Source: Bradyrhizobium sp. 195 (GTDB lineage: Bacteria > Pseudomonadota > Alphaproteobacteria > Rhizobiales > Xanthobacteraceae). From it: 64,000 nucleotides of DNA. Each line of letters opens with the position of its first letter. Position 1 is the stretch's first letter. A model generated the notes under the pieces. That model saw only the letters and a list, made by a program, of their open reading frames with translations. It was not told where the DNA came from and did no database searches. Of this stretch, positions 24,181-38,419 are shown one piece after another. The stretch lies in NCBI RefSeq assembly GCF_023101665.1, contig NZ_CP082161.1, forward strand, positions 1,178,001 to 1,242,000. The letters are read 5' to 3'. Position numbers and translations under genes: made by a program.

Positions 24181-25926
24181 ATGCGCATTGTGTATGTCGA
24201 AGTAGATAATTTTAGGGGCATTAAGAGCCTTCGCTGGGCCCCTAGCCCAAAGGTGAATTGTCTGATTGGCCCCGGCGATTCCACCAAGACGACAATTTTG
24301 GACGCAATCGAATTTGCAATGAATCCCAGGTCTTATTCCATTGCTGATGATTCCGATTTCTACAATCTAGATTATGATCAGCCGATTAGAGTCGTCGTGA
24401 CAGTTGGCGGGTTGCCCACCGAGTTCACTGCGGACGACCGTTATGGCATGCACTTGCGCGGTTGGAATCCCGAAACTCTGAGTATTGAGGACGAGCCAAG
24501 GTCAGGGCTCGAAGACGTCCTGTCCCTCCGAGCAATCGTCGATAAAACCCACGAAGTGCGTTGGTCGCTGCATAACGACCGCATTGAAGCGGACACCGAA
24601 GTAGACCCTCCCTCGGTGAGACACAAAGACATCGCTAGCTTTGCTACCACACGGCTCGGTCCGTACGCGGAACGCCACTTGAGTTGGGGCCGTCTATCTG
24701 TTCTCAATCGTTTAGGTGATGATGCCGAAGCCCTCCGAGGGCAACTGGCAGACGCAAGCCGTGCCGCCCGAGCTGCATTCGCGGCAGGAAATCCTAACGC
24801 TTTCGAAGAAATCGTTCGGCGCGCAGAATATCTGAGCAAGCAGTTTGGTGTTCCGGTGCGCGAGAGATATGCCGCTCAGCTGGACGTTCAAGGTGTGAAT
24901 ATCACGGCGAGCGGAATTTCCCTACACGATGGCAAGTTGCCTCTTCGGCGGCTCGGCGCAGGATCGTCGCGGCTGATCGTATCGGCACTCCAGCACGAGG
25001 CGGGTGGATCGCATGTCGCATTGATTGATGAAATCGAGCATGGGCTAGAACCTCATCGCATAGCGCGACTCCTTAAACACCTAAGTTCGCCATCGACAAA
25101 AGAATCGGGCGCTGACACACAACCACAGATATTTTGCACGACCCATTCTCCCGTAGTTCTCCGAGAATTGACGGCCGGAGAGCTTTGGGCCGTTCGTTGT
25201 TCAAATGGAAAAACGAAAGTCCAATCAATTTCGGCCGCAGCAAAAACCAATGGGGTTGCCCAACGACATTTGCGCCAAGAGCCGGGGGCGTTTTTGGCCC
25301 ACAGGATCGTGGTCTGCGAGGGCCGCACCGAACAAGGCCTCGCGCGAGGGCTTGACCATTATTGGGCTGCGAAAGGGGAACTAGACTCTTTCGCCGTTAA
25401 GGGCGCTGTCGCCATCGATGGGCACGGCAACGGCAGTGCTCCCATTCTGGCTGATCACCTTATCAGCCTCGGCTATGAGGTTTTGCTGTTGCTCGATACC
25501 GACGAGAAGGTCGACGATGTAGTTTTGCAAGCACTGAAAGCCAAGGGTGTTGTCGTTCTTGAATGGCCCGGTGGATGCTCTACCGAGGAACGAATGTTCC
25601 TTGATTTGCCTTGGTCCGTAGTAATCAAACTCGTGGCGTTTGCGGCAGAGTGCGTTACGGCGGACAGCGTCAAGGCCCAAATCAATAGAGAGTGCAAGGC
25701 GAGCGATTTGTCCGAATTGGCTGGCCTCGATTTGCCCGCGACTTTGAACAGTACCGCGTTCCGAGCCGTCTTAGGGCGCGCGGCCAAGAACGAAAACCGC
25801 GGTTGGTTTAAGGACATCACGCGCGGCGAGCAGCTCGCAGAAATTCTAGCGCCCCACCTTGATCAAATCGCTGACAAGCCCCTTTCTCAGGGAATAGCTC
25901 TGCTTCGGAATTGGATCGATGCTTGA
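24181..25926 (+). CDS. gajA: Gabija protein GajA (OLD-like ATPase with Toprim nuclease)
   Basis: The 581-residue protein, very close to the 578 of the reference GajA, has an N-terminal ABC-type ATPase with [18 protein letters not shown] (Walker A, residues about 29-38, T in place of the usual G before K), the [13 protein letters not shown] signature-like loop, and [15 protein letters not shown] (Walker B) followed by [10 protein letters not shown]. The C-terminal Toprim domain has [11 protein letters not shown] and [12 protein letters not shown], the glutamate and DxD metal ligands. GajA is the nucleotide-gated DNA nickase of the Gabija anti-phage system. It overlaps gajB by eight bases. The region is visibly more AT-rich than the nif genes. 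Confidence 0.93.
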
Positions 25927-27373
25927 GGCGGCGGCCGACAGCGAGATTGCAAGGGCCGCCGTATCGGTTCGTCTCGGGAGCATCCTTGCTGCTGCGGGTT
26001 GCGGTAAGACTGAGCAGATAGCTATTGCCACACTAGAGAGCCCAGGTCGCCGGCTCATTCTGACGCACAGCCACGCAGGCGTGGACGTTCTAAGGCAGCG
26101 CCTCAAAAAGCTGAGTGTACCAAGACGCAGGTTCCGGCTGGAGACGATTGCAGGGTGGTGCTTGCGCTACGCATCGTCATTCCCTACGCGGTCTGGACTG
26201 CAAAAGTTTGATCCCCGGGCCGAGGGTGAATGGAACGAGGTTTATCGTTCAGGAGCGCAGCTTATTAGCAGTGGCGCGATAGATTCAGTGCTTTCGACTT
26301 CTTATAGCGGCGTTTTCGTTGACGAGTACCAGGATTGCTCGCTTGAGCAACACAACGTCGTGACGGCACTTTCAAGGTTGCTCCCAGTCTGTGTCTTCGG
26401 CGATCCACTGCAAGCCATCTTCGATTTCAAGGGGCAACGGCCGGTAGATTGGGCGACGCATGTTTATCCCACGTTCGCCAAGGCCGGTGAACTCACGACC
26501 CCATGGCGGTGGAAGGATAACTCGACGCTGGCTGTATGGCTGAAAAAGATGCGTAGGGCGATTGAATCGCGCGGTGAAATCAATCTTGCCGGATGTCCGG
26601 ATTGCGTGAGATGGGAGGTTCTGCCTGTTGATCCGAGATACAGAACTAACAAGATTGTTGAAGTTTGTAAGCGTACTCGTGGCAAAGTCGGCGATGGGAC
26701 ACTGGTCGTTATTGCTGATGCCGCGAGCATCGGAGCGCGCGCGCATATCACTCAGAAGTTGGCGAAGGTGGGATTTTCCCAAATAGAGCCGATAGGCTGC
26801 ACGACGCTTTACAATGCAGCCAAGCAATTCGAGAATACGCAAGATATGAAGCACTTGATGGCGGTGATGAAGTTCATTGGCGATTGCATGACCGGCTCCA
26901 GCGCAACGCCCTATCTGCGGGCGGTGGAGGCTTGCCGGAAAGGCTTGAGGAAAGGAACGGCGGAGTTTGGATCGCTAATCGATCTAGGAGTTGCCCTTTT
27001 GGATGACCAAACGCCATCGTCGAGGCTGGCGTTGCTCGAAGGATTCTATGGTCGTGACGATGCTTATTGTTTCCGACGCGAAATGTATCATGCGATGCGG
27101 GCCGCTCTGCTTATATGCATAAGCCGGCCTTCCTGCCTACTAACGAACGCTCTTTGGGAGGTTCAGTCGAACGCGCGACATGCCGGTCGAATTGTTGGGA
27201 GACGGTGCGTAGGCAGCACCTTGCTTGTGAAGGGGTTGGAGTTTGATCATTCAGTACTGATCCATGCGCCGAGCATGACCCGAAAGGATTGGTACGTGGC
27301 GCTCACGCGAGCCAGTAAGACGTTGACCCTTCTCGTGCCTGCTCAACGATTTTCGTTGGCTTCCGACCGATAA
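25919..27373 (+). CDS. gajB: Gabija protein GajB (UvrD-like helicase)
   Basis: The 484-residue protein (reference about 494) is a UvrD/Rep-type superfamily 1 helicase: SILAAAGCGKTEQIA (Walker A, about residues 22-36), GVFVDEYQDCSLEQH (Walker B), CVFGDPLQAIFDF (motif III), a late LLVKGLEFDHSVLI, and WYVALTRASKTL (motif VI). GajB associates with the GajA tetramer and senses DNA ends made during phage attack. The ATG lies inside the end of gajA (eight-base overlap), so the two are translationally coupled. Confidence 0.93.
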   Translation: MLEAAADSEIARAAVSVRLGSILAAAGCGKTEQIAIATLESPGRRLILTHSHAGVDVLRQRLKKLSVPRRRFRLETIAGWCLRYASSFPTRSGLQKFDPRAEGEWNEVYRSGAQLISSGAIDSVLSTSYSGVFVDEYQDCSLEQHNVVTALSRLLPVCVFGDPLQAIFDFKGQRPVDWATHVYPTFAKAGELTTPWRWKDNSTLAVWLKKMRRAIESRGEINLAGCPDCVRWEVLPVDPRYRTNKIVEVCKRTRGKVGDGTLVVIADAASIGARAHITQKLAKVGFSQIEPIGCTTLYNAAKQFENTQDMKHLMAVMKFIGDCMTGSSATPYLRAVEACRKGLRKGTAEFGSLIDLGVALLDDQTPSSRLALLEGFYGRDDAYCFRREMYHAMRAALLICISRPSCLLTNALWEVQSNARHAGRIVGRRCVGSTLLVKGLEFDHSVLIHAPSMTRKDWYVALTRASKTLTLLVPAQRFSLASDR

Positions 27374-29981: not shown

Positions 29982-32219
29982 TCAAAGCACATAGCGCCAC
30001 CATTTGGGCAAAGAGGTTTCTGGAACGCCGCGCATCTCTCGCAGTCGTTGATGGGGCGGGCGGATACCGAGCATCACTAATCCGATATCGTTCAGGATCG
30101 AACGCCTTGAAGCAAAAACGGAATGCCCAAGTCCAAGTATCTCCCCGCCTATCGCAGTTACATCTATCGAGTCTATTCCGTCCACGAGCAATGGCCCAGA
30201 AGCGGGCACGTCACCGGCGCGCGGAATACCACCCGCAATACGCTTTGCGATCAATAAGGCCCTGTCGGCTGCCGAAGCGTACATCGTGGCTCCAAATGCG
30301 TCGGCAGTTTTCGGTGCTATCGAAAGGTAATGATGCGAATCCAGGTCTGGTGCTGCCATCATCATCTCGCCTATGGCGAGTTTTTTCAGCTGAGTTTTAG
30401 TGCAGCCATTAAATGCGTCGAGCGCTAAAAAATTGCCCATGCTGTGGGCTAACAGATGTATCCGATTTATACCCGACGAGCGGAGCGTTTTCAGGACCGA
30501 AATGAAGGCACCTCGGGCTCCAAGCGCGCTTTCACGATCATAACCATAGTCGAGTATTTGACCACGGGACGGCCATGAGAAAAGGACAGGGACGCCTTTG
30601 TACTGGAGGTCCCAAGTGATTTGAGCGACTCGATATAGAGCGTCTCGGAACGCTACATTGAAGCCATGCACGAATACGAATGCTTCGCTCAGAGAGGAGT
30701 TAGCAATCAGACTCTTCCATTCTTCCTCGGACAGGACGTCCACGGCCTCGATTATGAAGTGACGACTTGGATCAAGCGACTGTTCGAATAGAGGGATTGA
30801 AAGAACTGAAAACGTACGCGGCAACTCGACTCTTCCGATACGGTGCCGTTCTGGAATACGCACCTTTGCTGTTCCGAAAGTAATGTTCTTGGATCGCTCG
30901 CCTGTGAAATAGCTAACCTCACTTGCGTCTCTCTCGCGAGAGGTCGCGTAAAAAATTCCGACGCGTCTGCCATCACCGCTTTCGCGAGCTCCTTCCACCT
31001 CTTCTAACGGCGCCGGGCTCGAAAATCCTTCAGGCCCAGGACCTCCAACGACCGCACCAGGTGCCGTTGGATTCCGCAGTGGTCCTTGGGGCATCAAGCG
31101 CCCGTGGAGCGCGTCGGAGGGCGAGTAGTTAGCAATAACCGACAGCATCGACGGGGCAGAGAAGGCCAAGTCGGTCCGACCCGCTGCAGGCGCTTCGTGC
31201 GGTTCGATCTGCACCGACATTTTGAGCTGGATGGGGATCGAAAGGCCGAGGGCTTCGGAGGCTTTCCGTTCTTCCCCTCCGGGAGAGCTTGGGCGCGATT
31301 TGAGCCATGGTCGCTCGGCCAGATAGTGACGTATTGCTGATGCTTTGATGAAGTAGCTCTTGAAGGGATCTGGGCTCGCGAATTGTAGCCCGAGCACGCA
31401 GCCCTGACGCAGGTCGACGACTGCCGCACCAGAATTGCCCCCCATCGAATTGCAGTCATGAGTCGCCCATCCATGATCATCAGCTAGAAGGCGGCCCGGC
31501 GAAACCCGCTTGATGTCGAACGGGCCTTCTAAATCATCAAGAATGCTGCCCGACGCGGGCTGGCGGGGGTGGCCGATCGTGACGATTGTTTCGCCCGGTG
31601 CGAGATCAACTGAAGCCAGAGGAGCTAGTTCGTACTTCGGATAGGCAAACGCCTCGCTCTCAATCTTGAAAAAAGCGATGTCAGCCCTTGTGGCGTCAGG
31701 TTCGAACCACAAGAGATCGGTAATTCGGTACGTTACTCTAAGGGAGCCCAGCTCTCGTTTAACATTGAAATCTAGCTTTAGTGGCTCGCCAAAAAAACCA
31801 CTCTTGAGACGAAATTCCCCTCCATCACAAGAGCCGACCATCTCTGCCACGTGTCGGTTGGTAACGAGAATATCTTCGGCGACGGGCCAAGCGGTCCCGA
31901 TAATAGAAGCGGAATTTGGTAGATTGGAAACCTCAATGCACCCAACTGAACGACTTATCTGATCTATCTCAGTACGATTGCTTTCAAGCAAATCGAAGAA
32001 CGGTGGGCGCAAATCACCGTCGGGAAGACTTAAATATCCGCTCTGAATAGGAAATGTTGGACGAAGCTGCCGCACAAGCCGGTAAATTTGCTCATCAGAC
32101 ATCTCGGGCAAAGAAGCCATCGCGTCGTCGATTTGTAGTGAGTTTGGGTCGCTCGCGCCTAGCGAAGCCTCCTTTTGTTGATCCAGCCACGTCCGAAGCG
32201 CCTCCTTGTAAGCCTCCAT
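29982..32219 (-). CDS. Trypsin-like protease fused to a DUF900 alpha/beta hydrolase
   Basis: The 745-residue protein joins two enzymes. The N-terminal half is a trypsin-like serine protease: VTNRHVAE (His about 123), ADIAFFKI (Asp about 180) and SMGGNSGAAV (Ser about 263). A proline-rich linker (PGAVVGGPGPEGFSSPAPLEE) leads to a DUF900-type alpha/beta hydrolase with GIFYATSRER, FVFVHGFNVAFRDALYR, VLFSWPSRG and HLLAHSMGNFLALDA (nucleophile serine). No signal peptide is visible. The ATG at 32219 gives the natural start. It is transcribed toward the Gabija-associated genes. Protease-hydrolase fusions occur in defence and conflict loci, but its role here is unknown. Confidence 0.86.
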   Translation of the reverse strand: MEAYKEALRTWLDQQKEASLGASDPNSLQIDDAMASLPEMSDEQIYRLVRQLRPTFPIQSGYLSLPDGDLRPPFFDLLESNRTEIDQISRSVGCIEVSNLPNSASIIGTAWPVAEDILVTNRHVAEMVGSCDGGEFRLKSGFFGEPLKLDFNVKRELGSLRVTYRITDLLWFEPDATRADIAFFKIESEAFAYPKYELAPLASVDLAPGETIVTIGHPRQPASGSILDDLEGPFDIKRVSPGRLLADDHGWATHDCNSMGGNSGAAVVDLRQGCVLGLQFASPDPFKSYFIKASAIRHYLAERPWLKSRPSSPGGEERKASEALGLSIPIQLKMSVQIEPHEAPAAGRTDLAFSAPSMLSVIANYSPSDALHGRLMPQGPLRNPTAPGAVVGGPGPEGFSSPAPLEEVEGARESGDGRRVGIFYATSRERDASEVSYFTGERSKNITFGTAKVRIPERHRIGRVELPRTFSVLSIPLFEQSLDPSRHFIIEAVDVLSEEEWKSLIANSSLSEAFVFVHGFNVAFRDALYRVAQITWDLQYKGVPVLFSWPSRGQILDYGYDRESALGARGAFISVLKTLRSSGINRIHLLAHSMGNFLALDAFNGCTKTQLKKLAIGEMMMAAPDLDSHHYLSIAPKTADAFGATMYASAADRALLIAKRIAGGIPRAGDVPASGPLLVDGIDSIDVTAIGGEILGLGHSVFASRRSILNDIGLVMLGIRPPHQRLREMRGVPETSLPKWWRYVL

Positions 32220-32912
32220 TGGTTTGCTCCAAAGCAAAGTGACGTAGTGGGCCGCATTTTTTCGTCTATTGGTTGTCCGGTCAAGCAGGTGTACTGGTCT
32301 GGGTGTTGCTCGATTAACGGCATTACCCGGCAGAGATGACTGATTACAAATAATTGGCGGCCAAGGCGAGCACAGCTCCCGATTAGGGCTTTTGCAGGTT
32401 GGGCGGGATTTCCTTTTCGGTGGTAGCAAGACGTGGTAGCAATGAGGCAGCAGTCATGCCGATTTGTGCTTGTTTGTCAGGGTCTTCTTGGGTCGCCCTT
32501 CGTTTCCCCTAGGGAGCGCCAGCAATCTCAGGCACTTAAGTAGCCATCAACCGCGTTCATTGAATAATGGTTGAATAACACGGTGGTGAACAGCGGCGAA
32601 TGCTTGCGGAATTTGCTGCCGATATTGGTAGACTAGGCTCGGCGCGGTGCCTCACTGCCGGTGGCGCGTTCGCAAAAAAATTTGCTCGTCGCCCTTTGGT
32701 GTCCGGAAATATTCAAACCGCCGCTGACGTGCGCTGTCGTACGCGAGCGCCCTCGGATGCTCGCATTGACGTTGCTCATCGCACAGTCGACTCTCGTCCT
32801 GTCGAGCTTTGTGCGAGGAGGAGGGCGCGTGAGATACCATTGACGAGAGAACACTGGCGGACAACAGTCACAAGTCAGGCTATCCGCTCCGAAAGCCGCA
32901 GAACCGAGCTTG
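32220..32912. other. Gap with no supported gene
   Basis: About 690 bases between divergently oriented genes. TGGTAGCAA occurs twice in close succession near 32420-32440, and nothing else stands out. Short frames on both strands have no known motif. Confidence 0.4.
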
Positions 32913-33430: not shown

Positions 33431-34054
33431 TCATCGATGAGTTACCGCCTTTGTTCTGAATGCGCGCGGAAGGCACTCGCACATCGCCGCGCGTTCTGCT
33501 CCGATCAGCTCAACCACCCATTTCAACAAAGAGGGCGGGACCCGCATCCGGGCAAGCCGGAGTGCGTTGAAAACCGCATCGGCGGTGGCGCCCTTACCCA
33601 ATGCCGCCAGCACGGCAGGGTGGGTGAGTAAATCAAAAGAATTTCCAACGGTCAGGCGCGGGTACCGTTCACCGCAGATTCGCGTTGCCTTCCGCTCGTC
33701 GATCAGGGTGATCGCTCCCTTCTCGACGCCATAAGCGATTGTCGCGGCTTCGCCGTCGTCGAGGGTTGCGTCGCCCCGCCCGATCACCAGATCCTCGAAA
33801 TGGGACTCGGTGAGATCGTCAAGTTTCGCAACGGAGATAAGACTTGGCCCAACAAGATCGGCGACCAGTTGCCCGTCGTTGCGACCATTGCGGCGGTCTT
33901 CGAGGAGTTCTCCCTGCACGACATCCGTAATGATAAAGGGATTCGGAATGGCTCTTAGAATGCGCGGCCCGCAGGCCGTTGCATTCAGATTGATCACGGT
34001 ACTCGCATCGATCACAACCGGCGCCGTGGGGTCAATCAGGCATGAGAGCCCCAT
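33431..34054 (-). CDS. PIN-domain nuclease-like protein
   Basis: The 207-residue protein begins PVVIDASTVINLNA (first PIN aspartate), continues with IITDVVQGELLEDRR (conserved glutamate) and has LDDGEAATIAYGVEKGAITLIDERKATRI (second acidic cluster). This is a PIN fold with the expected metal-binding acids, as in VapC RNases. It overlaps the end of the XRE-ImmA/IrrE gene by 23 bases and is the last gene of the four-gene QueC-like operon. It could be the toxic nuclease effector, held by the upstream regulator-protease. Confidence 0.82.
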   Translation of the reverse strand: MGLSCLIDPTAPVVIDASTVINLNATACGPRILRAIPNPFIITDVVQGELLEDRRNGRNDGQLVADLVGPSLISVAKLDDLTESHFEDLVIGRGDATLDDGEAATIAYGVEKGAITLIDERKATRICGERYPRLTVGNSFDLLTHPAVLAALGKGATADAVFNALRLARMRVPPSLLKWVVELIGAERAAMCECLPRAFRTKAVTHR

Positions 34055-35213
34055 CGGCTTCGCTCCCTTCTATTTCTAGGCCATCAAACATGCGCCGCAG
34101 CTCGACACGGTTCAGATGGAGCATGCGCGCGAGTTGGCCTTCGCTGAGCATCCCACGGCGCCAGGCTTCCCCGGCGAGGAGCCCGAGCCGAAGCGTCGTC
34201 GGCCTGTCCGCATCCGCTTTATGAAGGTCGGGCCCCGAAAGATCGCCCAGCACCTGGACAGCGTGCTGATCGCTAATGCCGCCGTTCGCCTGAAACCAAT
34301 CCCACGTTCCAGACTTCGCCAGCTTAAGTTCCTCCAACCGCCTGACGATCGCTTCACGTGAAACGCCGAAGAAATGGGCGAGCACGATGACATGCCGCCG
34401 GGTCAGCTTTTCCGATCCGACAGTAATTTCCTTGAATTTTTGCATGACCGCGCGGGCGGGAGTCATGAAGGCTCGGCCGAACGTGTTGGCGTAACGCTCC
34501 TCGCGGGAGTTTTCAGTGACGCCCTCTTCCAGCACCTCCGGCTCACGCCGCGTCGAAACCAGATGACCGAGCTCGTGGGCTGCCGTTTGAGCGCGGCGAT
34601 CGCGCGGGTGATTGCCGTTAAGGAGGATGCAGGCGCCGAGCGCCTCGTCGTACGCGAATACGCCAGAGATTCCGCCATCGATCCGCCGGATGTAGACGCG
34701 CACACCAAGCTCAAGCTCCAGCAGCGTTACAATGTCGGAGATCGGGCTCAGGCCTAGTCCGAGCCGCTGCCGCAATTCGAGCGCGTCCTGCTCCGCCTGC
34801 GCTCGAACATCGCCGGGCAGAATGGGGCGTTCCGGCGGATAATTGCGCAGTGGCTGAACGCCGAGAAGCTGTTCCAGCTCCGCCTCGGCACGGGCCAAAT
34901 CCTCCAGCTGCTTCACAGCGAGCTCGACCGCATCATCCTCCTGTTGGAACAGTTTACGGAATTTGGGCGTGAGTTCCGCGTGGATCGCCTCCTGCCGCAT
35001 CAGCTCGTTGATGGACGTTTGGTAAAGACTCGCGAGTTTGCGGAGCTCGTCGATGCGGACGCGTCGTTGCCCTTGCTCGATCGCAATCAGAGTGGTCCGC
35101 GACAGCCCAACGGATTCCGCTGCTTCCGCTTGCTTGAGCTTCACACGGTCGCGCGCTCCGCGGAGGCGCTCTCCGACTTCCACCGGCGGCATGGTATCAA
35201 GCAGACTGGTCAT
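34032..35213 (-). CDS. XRE regulator fused to ImmA/IrrE metalloprotease
   Basis: The 393-residue protein has an N-terminal XRE helix-turn-helix (QAEAAESVGLSRTTLIAIEQG) and a central zinc protease domain with AAHELGHLVSTRREPE, where HELGH is the HExxH motif, followed by ENSREERYANTFGRAFMTP with the third ligand region typical of ImmA/IrrE. A C-terminal helical domain with LGLLAGEAWRRGMLSEGQLARML follows. Such proteins cleave or inactivate a repressor on a signal. Translation begins within the end of the QueC-like gene (17-base overlap at ATG 35213). It is probably the sensor/regulator of the operon. Confidence 0.92.
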   Translation of the reverse strand: MTSLLDTMPPVEVGERLRGARDRVKLKQAEAAESVGLSRTTLIAIEQGQRRVRIDELRKLASLYQTSINELMRQEAIHAELTPKFRKLFQQEDDAVELAVKQLEDLARAEAELEQLLGVQPLRNYPPERPILPGDVRAQAEQDALELRQRLGLGLSPISDIVTLLELELGVRVYIRRIDGGISGVFAYDEALGACILLNGNHPRDRRAQTAAHELGHLVSTRREPEVLEEGVTENSREERYANTFGRAFMTPARAVMQKFKEITVGSEKLTRRHVIVLAHFFGVSREAIVRRLEELKLAKSGTWDWFQANGGISDQHAVQVLGDLSGPDLHKADADRPTTLRLGLLAGEAWRRGMLSEGQLARMLHLNRVELRRMFDGLEIEGSEADGALMPD

Positions 35214-36579
35214 TGTCGGCCCACTGAGCAACGAATGACTGTGGTCCCAGAGAACTCATATAAGTCTTCCATTCTTTTTGGTGTTGGGAAAGCAGTCGGT
35301 CCAGCTTTGGCCGGATGACCGCTTCCGTCTCTCCGAGCGCGCGTGCCAGCTGAAAGGCCGCGAGACTGAGCGGCCGCTCTGCCGCGCGCGACTGCGTTAG
35401 ATACGCCAGGTGATCGAGATGCAACGTGCCTGCGATTGCATATTGTTTTTGCGCGCGGGTCTTTTTGTTGAAACCTTCGGCGGCGCCCGCATCAAAAGTT
35501 GGCGCAGAGAGATTTTCCCAGACATAGGTATCTGCAGGTTCCGTGAGATCTGCCGCATGAACGCTTAGTCGCCGCAGCATGCAGGCCGCGCAAATGCCGC
35601 ACTGGCGACGGTGATTGTCGACCGACACATGGCGGTTATCCTGCCAGCATGATCTCGTCTCCGACCACTCGGTATCCTTTCCGTTGCTCAGCGCCATGTA
35701 CTCTTTGAGGGTTTCACCTTTGGTGAACCACAGACGCGGGAATACGAAAGCAATGTCAACGCCGAGAAGGGCTTTGAAGAACGCCGTCATGTGTTTCATG
35801 AATCGGGGATGATTGCGATAATCTTCATACGCTTGACCGACCGGAACAAGCGTTGGACCAAGCGCACCTTGTCCGCTCTCCGGCACGATGACCTTGCCCG
35901 CTTTGGCAAAATACGCGGCCGATCCGCTCAACACGGCAAATTTGAATCCGCGAGACCGGGCGCTTGATTCGACAAAGTGGGATGCGCCGGGCTTCACTTG
36001 ATATGGCAGCGCCATGAAAGGCTGCTTTCGGCCGAACGAATCTTTCGGTTGATCTTTCTTCTTTGATCCGAGCCGAACACGGATCAGCCGGCTGCCGTAT
36101 TCCTCTGCCATCAACGCGCCAACCGCGCGGGAGTCGAGTCCGTCGCTAAAAGGAATGACCGCCTCGGCACCCGTTTCCAGATAGAAAAGTTCCTGTGCCG
36201 GTTCAGCGGCAGGCTTCTTACGCTTTATGAAGGTGACTTTCCATTGATCACCCGTCAGGAGCTCCAGTGCTTCATGCAAGGCGTCAGACACAGCCTTCTG
36301 ATTCCATACGTCTGGATCATGCACCGGCAAGCGCAGGTCAAAGGCACGGCCCCATCCTAAGGCTGGGCGACGTTGTATGCGATCACAGAATTCAACGGAT
36401 GCAGCGAGCAGCATCAGATCGAATACGACCGGCTCCCATTTCGCAAAGAAATACGCCGCAAGATTATGCGTCTTGAAGATGAGATTGGTATCGATCTCGC
36501 AAGAGATCCGGCCTGCGCGGGCGCGTCCGCCGGCTTCGTGCACATCGACCAGGAGTCCAGGCAGTTCATCGTCGTTCAT
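35197..36579 (-). CDS. QueC-like PP-loop enzyme
   Basis: The 460-residue protein has a PP-loop ATP-pyrophosphatase motif VIPFSDGLDSRAVG (residues 145-150 SDGLDS) and a C-terminal zinc site CWQDNRHVSVDNH followed by QCGICAACMLRR, as in QueC, which makes the 7-deazaguanine preQ0. It is about twice the length of housekeeping QueC, with an extra N-terminal domain. Long QueC-like proteins are known parts of the Qat defence system and type IV CBASS. Here the neighbours differ (ImmA/IrrE and PIN). It overlaps the preceding gene by four bases (ATGA). Confidence 0.87.
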   Translation of the reverse strand: MNDDELPGLLVDVHEAGGRARAGRISCEIDTNLIFKTHNLAAYFFAKWEPVVFDLMLLAASVEFCDRIQRRPALGWGRAFDLRLPVHDPDVWNQKAVSDALHEALELLTGDQWKVTFIKRKKPAAEPAQELFYLETGAEAVIPFSDGLDSRAVGALMAEEYGSRLIRVRLGSKKKDQPKDSFGRKQPFMALPYQVKPGASHFVESSARSRGFKFAVLSGSAAYFAKAGKVIVPESGQGALGPTLVPVGQAYEDYRNHPRFMKHMTAFFKALLGVDIAFVFPRLWFTKGETLKEYMALSNGKDTEWSETRSCWQDNRHVSVDNHRRQCGICAACMLRRLSVHAADLTEPADTYVWENLSAPTFDAGAAEGFNKKTRAQKQYAIAGTLHLDHLAYLTQSRAAERPLSLAAFQLARALGETEAVIRPKLDRLLSQHQKEWKTYMSSLGPQSFVAQWADNDQSA

Positions 36580-37154
36580 GGCAGCCTCACGCCGTCTTCA
36601 AGCCCTTGCTGCTTGACGGATTGGGGTTGGGTAGCAGCGTCCAGACCCGACAGACGACGAGCGAGACCCGCAATCGGAGCACTCGCGACAGCGTCCTCCA
36701 TCCGGTTTCTGACACGGGTCGCCATCGCTTCGGGGCTCTGCTTGCGCAGGTAATGTTCTTCCACTTGCCGGGGCCCCCGCGCGGCGCGATCGCGTAGGGT
36801 ATTTTCGACACCGTCGCAAACCGCGTCGATGCCGAGCTTTCCACTCGCCGCAGATTGGATGACGTGATCGACGATCAGGCGCCGCATCGGGTATCCGGCA
36901 GAAAGATCCCGCCGCGCGGCTTCCAGTTCCACTGTCTTCTCTCGTCCGAACAAATCGGTCTGCCGGGCGTCGCTCAGGATCGTTCGGATGGCGCGGACGA
37001 CTTCGCCGCAGCCTTCGTCATGCCACGTCTCTTCCAGTGCAGGGACGACACGTCCGGCAACTTCGTCAGGCTCAAATGCAGCCTTGTGCGCCCATTCAGC
37101 AAACTTCTTCCAGGCGCGCGTCATGTTCAAACTTTTATACGGACCATCACTCAT
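36576..37154 (-). CDS. Unknown first protein of the QueC-like operon
   Basis: The 192-residue protein starts MSDGPYKSLNMTRAWKKFAE, with FEPDEVAGRVVPALEETW and LIVDHVIQSAASGKLGID further on. It is soluble and mostly helical, with no catalytic motif that I recognise. The ATG at 37154 has GGAG about eight bases upstream and lies just after a strong promoter. It overlaps the QueC-like gene by four bases. It may be a partner or substrate of that enzyme, analogous in position to QatB, but I see no clear similarity to QatB. Confidence 0.75.
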   Translation of the reverse strand: MSDGPYKSLNMTRAWKKFAEWAHKAAFEPDEVAGRVVPALEETWHDEGCGEVVRAIRTILSDARQTDLFGREKTVELEAARRDLSAGYPMRRLIVDHVIQSAASGKLGIDAVCDGVENTLRDRAARGPRQVEEHYLRKQSPEAMATRVRNRMEDAVASAPIAGLARRLSGLDAATQPQSVKQQGLEDGVRLP

Positions 37155-37173
37155 GGCGATTCTCCATGTCAAA

Positions 37174-37202
37174 AATATACCATAAAAGTCTGACAATGTC
37201 AA
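37174..37202 (-). promoter_or_regulatory. Sigma-70 promoter of the QueC-like operon
   Basis: On the minus strand TTGACA (37197-37202) and TATATT (37174-37179) are 17 bases apart, a near-perfect housekeeping promoter. The -35 overlaps a small palindrome, TGACA-T-TGTCA (37191-37201), a likely operator for the XRE protein. Confidence 0.72.
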
Positions 37203-37275: not shown

Positions 37276-37304
37276 ATAATCACCGCAAGAGGTGCGGAGA
37301 ATGC
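37276..37304. repeat. Palindromic operator, copy 2, over the fic start
   Basis: The same core, ACCGCA-N5-TGCGGA-GAAT, repeats 55 bases after copy 1 and covers the fic ATG (37301). Binding here would block fic transcription or translation, suggesting autoregulation, perhaps through the winged-helix end of the Fic protein. Confidence 0.62.
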
Positions 37305-38419
37305 CGAAATACATCTACGAACAAACAGACTGGCCCGATTTCCGATGGAGCTCCGAGGCTCTGGCTCAACAACTTGCTGCAGTACGTCACCGGCAGGGAC
37401 GGCTCATCGGCCGCATGCAGGCGCTTGGCTTTCCTTTGCGGGAAGAGGCGGTCTTAAAAACTCTGACCGAGGACGTTCTTAAATCCAGTGAGATTGAAGG
37501 CGAGATTCTAGACAAGGATCAAGTCCGGTCTTCCATCGCCCGGCGCTTGGGGATGGATGTCGGCGCGCTTCCGGCCGCCGACCGCAACGTCGACGGCGTC
37601 GTCGAGATGATGCTCGACGCCACGCAGCGTTTCAAAGAGCCGCTCACGGACGAGCGGTTATTCGGCTGGCATGGCGCGCTCTTTCCGACCGGACGCAGCG
37701 GCTTGAGCAAGATCAAAGTCGGCGCATGGCGGGACGCGGCATCCGGTCCTATGCAGGTTCTCTCCGGTCCATATGGTCGCGAAAAGGTCCATTACGAAGC
37801 GCCCGGCGCCGACCGGCTCGATCACGACATGAAGGCCTTTCTCGTCTGGTACAACGCGGATGATAAACTTGATCCCGTTATCAAAGCTGCGCTCGCGCAT
37901 TTGTGGTTCGTGACCATCCATCCCTTCGATGATGGCAATGGACGCATTGCACGCGCGATTGCCGACATGTCGCTCGCGCGATCAGAAGACAGCCCGCAAC
38001 GTTTCTACAGCATGTCGGCACAGATCCGGCTGGAACGAAACGCCTATTACGACATGCTTGAAGCAACGCAGAAGCGAGACCTCGATGTCACCTCATGGCT
38101 TGAATGGTTTCTCGCATGCCTCGATCGGGCGTTTGACGGCGCTGAAGCGGTTCTGGCGAATGTCTTCCACAAAGCAGAGTTCTGGAAGAACTACGCACAG
38201 GCGCCGCTCAACAAGCGTCAGCGCGATATTCTCAATCGTCTCCTCGACGGATTCGAGGGCAAGCTGACATCGTCCAAATACGCGAAGATCGAAAAATGCT
38301 CGGCCGATACGGCGCTACGCGACATCAGTGAACTGGTCGAACACGGCATGCTGGTGAAGGACGAGGGGGGTGGCCGCAATACAAGCTACTCGCTCACGGA
38401 GATCAAGACCAATGACTGA
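37301..38419 (+). CDS. fic: Fic-family AMP-transferase with winged-helix C-terminus
   Basis: The 372-residue protein has an N-terminal DUF4172-like region (YIYEQTDWPDFRW), the inhibitory motif SSEIEG (S/TxxxE-G/N form) that blocks ATP in class II Fic proteins, the catalytic loop TIHPFDDGNGRIARAIAD with the key histidine, and a C-terminal winged helix (RQRDILNRLLDGF, then CSADTALRDISELVEHGML). Fic proteins AMPylate target proteins and some are toxins kept silent by the inhibitory helix. The C-terminal HTH fits binding to the two palindromes around its own promoter. It overlaps the RES-like fragment by eight bases. Confidence 0.94.
   Translation: MPKYIYEQTDWPDFRWSSEALAQQLAAVRHRQGRLIGRMQALGFPLREEAVLKTLTEDVLKSSEIEGEILDKDQVRSSIARRLGMDVGALPAADRNVDGVVEMMLDATQRFKEPLTDERLFGWHGALFPTGRSGLSKIKVGAWRDAASGPMQVLSGPYGREKVHYEAPGADRLDHDMKAFLVWYNADDKLDPVIKAALAHLWFVTIHPFDDGNGRIARAIADMSLARSEDSPQRFYSMSAQIRLERNAYYDMLEATQKRDLDVTSWLEWFLACLDRAFDGAEAVLANVFHKAEFWKNYAQAPLNKRQRDILNRLLDGFEGKLTSSKYAKIEKCSADTALRDISELVEHGMLVKDEGGGRNTSYSLTEIKTND

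Follow-up and report, generated by a model that had tools for sequence, protein, structure and literature searches.

A 64,000-nucleotide stretch of the Bradyrhizobium sp. 195 genome (NZ_CP082161.1, positions 1,178,001 to 1,242,000), here called the window, was analyzed for an operon of four minus-strand genes, A to D, whose open reading frames (ORFs) overlap in turn by 4, 17 and 23 bases. Gene A (36576..37154) encodes a 192 amino acid (aa) protein predicted to be all-helical, gene B (35197..36579) a 460 aa QueC-like protein, gene C (34032..35213) a 393 aa protein in which an XRE helix-turn-helix (HTH), an ImmA/IrrE (M78) protease and a C-terminal UPF0175-like segment are joined, and gene D (33431..34054) a 207 aa PIN-family nuclease, the proposed toxin. 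Ahead of A lies a sigma-70 promoter, TTGACA-17-TATATT (37174..37202, minus strand), with 11 of 12 consensus bases and a TG preceding the -10 box; three promoter-like sites were found in the region (1.4 expected), the remaining two being 9/12 matches. An earlier note on this DNA, made by a model from the sequence alone, had described four overlapping genes under one strong sigma-70 promoter, which these coordinates and this match bear out, and had put the 5′ end at 37202, which required correction: the TTG at 37202 falls within the -35 box, and the start of A is the ATG at 37154, conserved across homologues and giving 192 aa. The operon consists of two modules, A-B and C-D. Each by itself belongs to a known kind; what is new is their combination, together with the proposed acceptor tip and the pocket loop described below.

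The unit was traced by tblastn against 72,556 plasmids, in which B gave 128 records, 25 covering at least 80% of the protein, and D matched 26 plasmids, including all 25 with B; regions from 19 of the 25 plasmids were retrieved, as were 7 loci on genome contigs. Among 385 genomes sampled from the class, 13 had a B-like match at E 1e-10, 3 at full strength (at least 590 bits) and the rest at 137 bits or less. D was at full strength in the same 3 genomes, an overlap with a chance of about 1 in 9 million if the two genes were independent, and its sole other match in this sample (genome G280, E 6e-9) lay in a remote XRE-ImmA/PIN pair without A and B. Sampling 398 genomes from the phylum gave five B matches at E 1e-30, all in this same class; four were of full strength and the fifth (G714) was of another type. 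Within the genus 23 of 242 genomes had B matches, all 23 of which were examined. Wide loci were pooled, and four duplicates (L103, L104, L105 and L113) and a Microvirga locus with D only were removed, leaving 48 distinct loci, all alphaproteobacterial and in many cases closely related. C and D lay directly downstream of B in 48/48, each as one open frame spanning nearly the whole profile, and A was detected by profile in 47 and through its start motif in L095. Because C and D follow B in every distinct locus, the co-occurrence of the four families in the same order, which the earlier note had proposed as a check, goes beyond chance, and A-B-C-D is a conserved unit in fixed gene order. The 26th plasmid with D is that of Microvirga (L065 5944-6585), with D alone, A, B and C being undetected within about 6 kb on each side; CGATCGGGACGAT-type repeats lie directly upstream of this lone gene.

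B matched PF06508 QueC at 29.7 bits (cut-off 22) and PADLOC QatC at 116.7 bits, stayed under the NCBIfam QatC equivalog cut-off (125.1 bits vs 280), and in hidden Markov model (HMM) comparisons matched the QatC structures 9vlk (E 9.6e-32) and 9zee (E 2e-30). Judged by sequence, B is a divergent QatC relative. Its ATP-pyrophosphate loop reads SDGLDS (36130..36147, minus strand), and across the 48 loci the first Gly of the strict SGGxDS loop, a QatC feature according to PMC13329287, is replaced by D, E, N or K. The pocket loop, DYRNHP (35806..35823, minus strand), occupies the TRTTHP region of QatC. As described in PMC13279940, the base is held by a Tyr and an Asp in QueC and Cap9, QatC has two Thr, and this pair in the TRT loop is essential in QatC. 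The paired Thr is missing from the window B (D-Y-R-N); over the 48 loci the loop was DYRN in 42, DYRV in L064, DHRN in L013, DLRT in L017 and HRTT in the three basal loci L094-L096 (HRTTHP), and it was TR[TS][TA]HP in 15/15 distinct relatives outside the unit with a readable loop (12 of Qat type or unclassed and 3 of MGH type, a truncated one counted; L041 and L067, unreadable, were left out). The pocket loop of B is rebuilt relative to QatC. That B regained the base-stacking Tyr of QueC was considered and lost weight, since the residue match hinges on the placement of a one-residue gap: both HMM alignments to QatC place Tyr254 at Thr278 through such a gap after the shared Arg, and if residues are counted from the His-Pro common to both, Asp253 and not Tyr254 falls at Thr278.

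A had no Pfam match of its own, in keeping with its description in the earlier note as an unknown protein. Its N-terminus (M-[S/T]-D-G-P; MSDGP in the window, 37140..37154, minus strand) is conserved much more strongly than the rest of the protein, with M1, D3 and G4 invariant in 22/22 homologues. Among 46 loci with a located start the tip was SDGP in 33, TDGP in 9, RDDI in 3 and RDGI in 1, so that the residue after Met is Ser or Thr in 42 and Arg in 4, and these 4 are exactly L017 and L094-L096; the start motif was absent from L097 and L098, in both of which B is broken. A C-terminal motif, D/E-D/N/Q/E-G-V/P (36588..36599, minus strand), is also conserved and echoes the DG of the N-terminus. 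When a tree was built from 56 enzymes, all 41 B proteins that are intact fell in one clade (support 0.93). Since the 37 B proteins with Tyr or His in the loop also formed a single clade (0.98), with the Arg-tip loci L017 and L094-L096 branching below it, the loop change in B and the tip change in A map to one branch and represent a single event, not repeated coevolution.

The conserved tip, together with its change on the same branch as the rebuilt pocket loop, indicates that A probably corresponds in role to QatB, which is the putative QatC substrate, and would be the substrate of B. Profile comparison of A with 10 QatB proteins gave no significant likeness (E 0.097, 12 columns); 43 columns near the N-terminus were weakly alike in three MGH-type proteins (E 0.011, probability 3.9%), and the A profile weakly matched 2fe1, PAE0151 (E 0.0013). 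The structural check proposed in the earlier note was carried as far as a model of A, for which Foldseek listed no match at E 0.001, a result that does not establish a new fold. The N-terminus of D (MGLS in the window) was tried as an acceptor and rejected, since it varies (MGLS, MRLS, MSLS, MTFS, MRQP, MTYS and others) whereas the A tip is conserved.

These features of A bear on the idea that B places a self mark on a nucleic acid or small molecule, that RNA or DNA lacking the mark is attacked by the PIN nuclease and that A is a specificity adaptor. Canonical QueC makes the base for tRNA and DNA modification (PMC13329287), and the C-D-like pair of G280 adjoins a gene with a match, below cut-off, to Nmad2 (nucleotide modification associated). 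However, no transglycosylase gene was found among the four proteins by Pfam, the conserved A tip fits a protein acceptor better, and PMC13329287 states that QueC in E. coli cannot be replaced by QatC; we consider self-marking distinctly improbable. The earlier note had a deazaguanine-type group attached to a protein or nucleic acid, which is sensible as a protein modification, with the target now changed to what is likely the N-terminus of A.

The A-B module resembles the QatB-QatC core of Qat in that a small helical protein with a conserved N-terminal tip precedes a QueC-like enzyme extended at both termini, and in the motifs ExG, TK, RxRxxxF and CGxC common to B and QatC. It differs in that B has SxGxDS instead of SGGxDS and lacks the TRTTHP loop, that the QatB tip MGTS occurs in 0/46 located A starts, and that the operon partners are C and D. 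Neither qatA (KAP NTPase) nor qatD (TatD) was found among the window ORFs or the Pfam matches of the four proteins, the flanks not having been scanned with PF07693 or PF01026, and no gene so named adjoins the operon in 15 annotated plasmid regions. Type IV CBASS likewise has a QueC-like enzyme beside a protein with a conserved N-terminus, and nucleobase-protein conjugation may be common to both; in contrast, B has 460 aa and Cap9 about 185, and the A tip is not MGGS. Neither a CD-NTase nor Cap10 (TGT-like) was found among the four proteins by Pfam or named in the annotated regions. The absence of QatA, QatD, CD-NTase and TGT-like genes asserted in the earlier note thus stands for the four proteins and the 15 annotated regions, and an assignment of the operon to Qat or to type IV CBASS is rejected on the features given above. 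The unit is named in no database model or paper searched, most subscription journals and supplements lying outside the search, and within that scope no named system identical to it was found. In PMC13329287 qatA adjoins 34.3% of the QatC cluster, so that relatives of the unit may be present there unremarked.

C matched Peptidase_M78 (61 bits) and HTH_3 in Pfam, and H213, E214 and H217 of its HELGH zinc-protease motif (34563..34577, minus strand) are present in 48/48 loci. Residues 345-373 (34095..34181, minus strand) form the UPF0175-like segment, a proposed antitoxin part whose match in the window is below cut-off (E 0.016); 13/20 C homologues matched UPF0175 at E 1 or better, the best at 3.6e-5. 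The best PADLOC match of C was RmrA (90.5 bits), with capP at 45.4 bits and capH at 29.3 bits; C shares HTH and M78 protease with CapH/CapP and RmrA and differs in that these matches are partial, that no CBASS genes are present and that C has the additional C-terminal segment. D had no Pfam match of its own and its profile matched no solved structure at E 0.1; a PIN match at E 1 or better was obtained for 9/20 D homologues (best 5.2e-6), and D weakly matched the PADLOC candidate family PDC-S70 (E 9e-7). D16, E49, D100, E102 and D119 (33698..34009, minus strand), each present in 48/48 loci, correspond to the acids typical of PIN. The QueC-like, XRE-ImmA/IrrE and PIN identities given in the earlier note were recovered.

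In Makarova et al. 2009 (PMC2701414), COG2886 (UPF0175) is named among the antitoxins that accompany PIN genes, and fusions of XRE with COG2856 next to a PIN or RelE gene are described as probably forming a toxin-antitoxin system of three components. C-D resembles these modules in that a fused HTH-HExxH zinc protease gene overlaps a PIN gene and in the UPF0175/COG2886-like segment, weakly matched in the window C; unlike them, it is always preceded by A-B (48 loci), and the repressor, protease and antitoxin-like parts lie in one chain. C-D, with D the putative toxin and C the putative antitoxin, is of the toxin-antitoxin type predicted there. The undescribed defense or toxin-antitoxin system suggested in the earlier note was not found named as a whole in the sources searched, and the type of its C-D half had been predicted.

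C-D could be an ordinary XRE-ImmA/PIN addiction module that stabilizes mobile DNA, with A-B a co-transcribed, independent QatBC-like defense pair having no biochemical link to it. The two halves do occur apart, as the remote C-D-like pair of G280 (L056 2588-4788) and as A-B-like pairs of Qat and MGH type, and breaks were confined to the first half: the B frame is broken in 7/48 loci (L006, L007, L022 and L097-L100), that of A in 2/48 (L020 and L097) and those of C and D in 0/48, as expected if addiction keeps C-D. Assembly errors may account for some of these breaks; others are shared by descent. Yet among matches this similar, D hardly ever occurs without B (the two are together in 25/26 plasmids and 3/4 genomes), and no B locus of the 48 lacks C-D; we hold independent halves to be unlikely.

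A palindrome, TTGACATTGTCA (palindrome TGACATTGTCA), lies over the -35 box in the window (37191..37202, minus strand), as it does in most loci, and is the proposed operator of C. This sequence or either of two variants, drawn from the same loci as were tested, was found with at most one mismatch upstream of A in 40 of the 46 loci whose A start was located, at a distance of 35 to 52 bases from that start, and shuffled upstream regions matched in 0.25%; the remaining 6 had the palindrome with two mismatches. A second TGACAT half-site (37166..37171, minus strand) just ahead of the ribosome-binding site is present in most, not all, homologues. Since the palindrome is kept though the identity of homologous A proteins to the window A falls to 13%, it is probably under selection, and C may bind it.

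The window, from a soil bacterium that fixes nitrogen, carries, by reading, nif and fix genes and, by Pfam, the mobile-element genes ArdC, RPA and resolvase, and the operon is on mobile DNA, a mobile island. It might then regulate transfer or excision of its element, as ImmA/ImmR of ICEBs1 do, with no part in defense; the HTH of C resembles the ICEBs1 regulator (7t8i, E 5.9e-8), and 14/26 D-bearing plasmids were typed conjugative. Against this, the palindrome is located at the operon's own promoter, and in the annotated plasmid regions the neighbors vary from locus to locus, with no fixed set of transfer genes alongside; we think transfer control very unlikely.

Our preferred reading, which we judge to have an even chance of being right, is that the operon is of a defense type in which A-B works like QatB-QatC and signals to the toxin-antitoxin module C-D. 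As homology and conservation suggest, B would spend ATP in joining a small group to the Ser or Thr that heads A after Met removal; this group would most likely be a base of the 7-deazaguanine type. C would repress the operon at the TTGACATTGTCA site, and its C-terminal segment would keep the PIN nuclease D inactive until, when triggered, the ImmA-type protease inactivates C and D is freed to cut RNA and stop the cell; this step follows what is known of the families. A-B would serve as sensor or licence and, through the state of A, inform C that it should act, a link that strict operon conservation points to. Tagging of A could either arm or restrain D.

The more specific proposal, that C releases the PIN toxin once the Ser or Thr of A carries a nucleobase, either 7-deazaguanine or a new relative that the rebuilt loop selects, is tentative and on balance doubtful; the ambiguous placement of Tyr254 and Asp253 weighs against it and lowered our estimate slightly. 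Protein tagging by QueC-like enzymes is a recent report, in CBASS, and the QatC reaction is still open. If true, the present reading would add a further tagging system whose acceptor tip differs, whose pocket loop is rebuilt and whose effector can be identified. Its acceptor would not be glycine, the one known to date, and a toxin-antitoxin pair would be governed by nucleobase-protein conjugation; the reading also suggests, in a form that can be tested, that such modules control toxin release. The basal members L017 and L094-L096, with another loop and Arg at A position 2, allow the change to be studied by comparison.

The base pathway is probably present in the host, because the same genome contains a canonical QueC (234.6 bits) and two PTPS genes. 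It also contains a second QatC-like gene in an apparently complete canonical qat locus, with a QatB that starts MGTS (L031 2208-7435; G000:C1, about 4.94 Mb).

Elsewhere in the window, a Gabija pair (24181-27373, plus strand) consists of overlapping genes for a GajA-like protein of 581 aa (642 bits) and a GajB-like protein of 484 aa (486 bits), and a fused trypsin-like protease and DUF900 alpha/beta hydrolase of about 800 aa is encoded at 29982-32429 (minus strand). A Fic protein gene (DUF4172-Fic, SoFic 158 bits; 37292-38419, plus strand) is divergent from the operon, and Methylocystis MJC1 (L012) likewise has a Fic gene upstream of its operon. In some loci, homologous operons have AbiE, Shedu, restriction or DUF262 genes nearby. 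Two-gene modules of the MGH type (L050 4256-6863, L051 345-2991 and L061 4221-6915) encode an MGHxxLG protein of about 260 aa followed by a QueC-like enzyme of 615-685 aa with a TR[TS]THP loop; no qatA or qatD was recognized in them by reading, and they are possibly a further QueC-based system.

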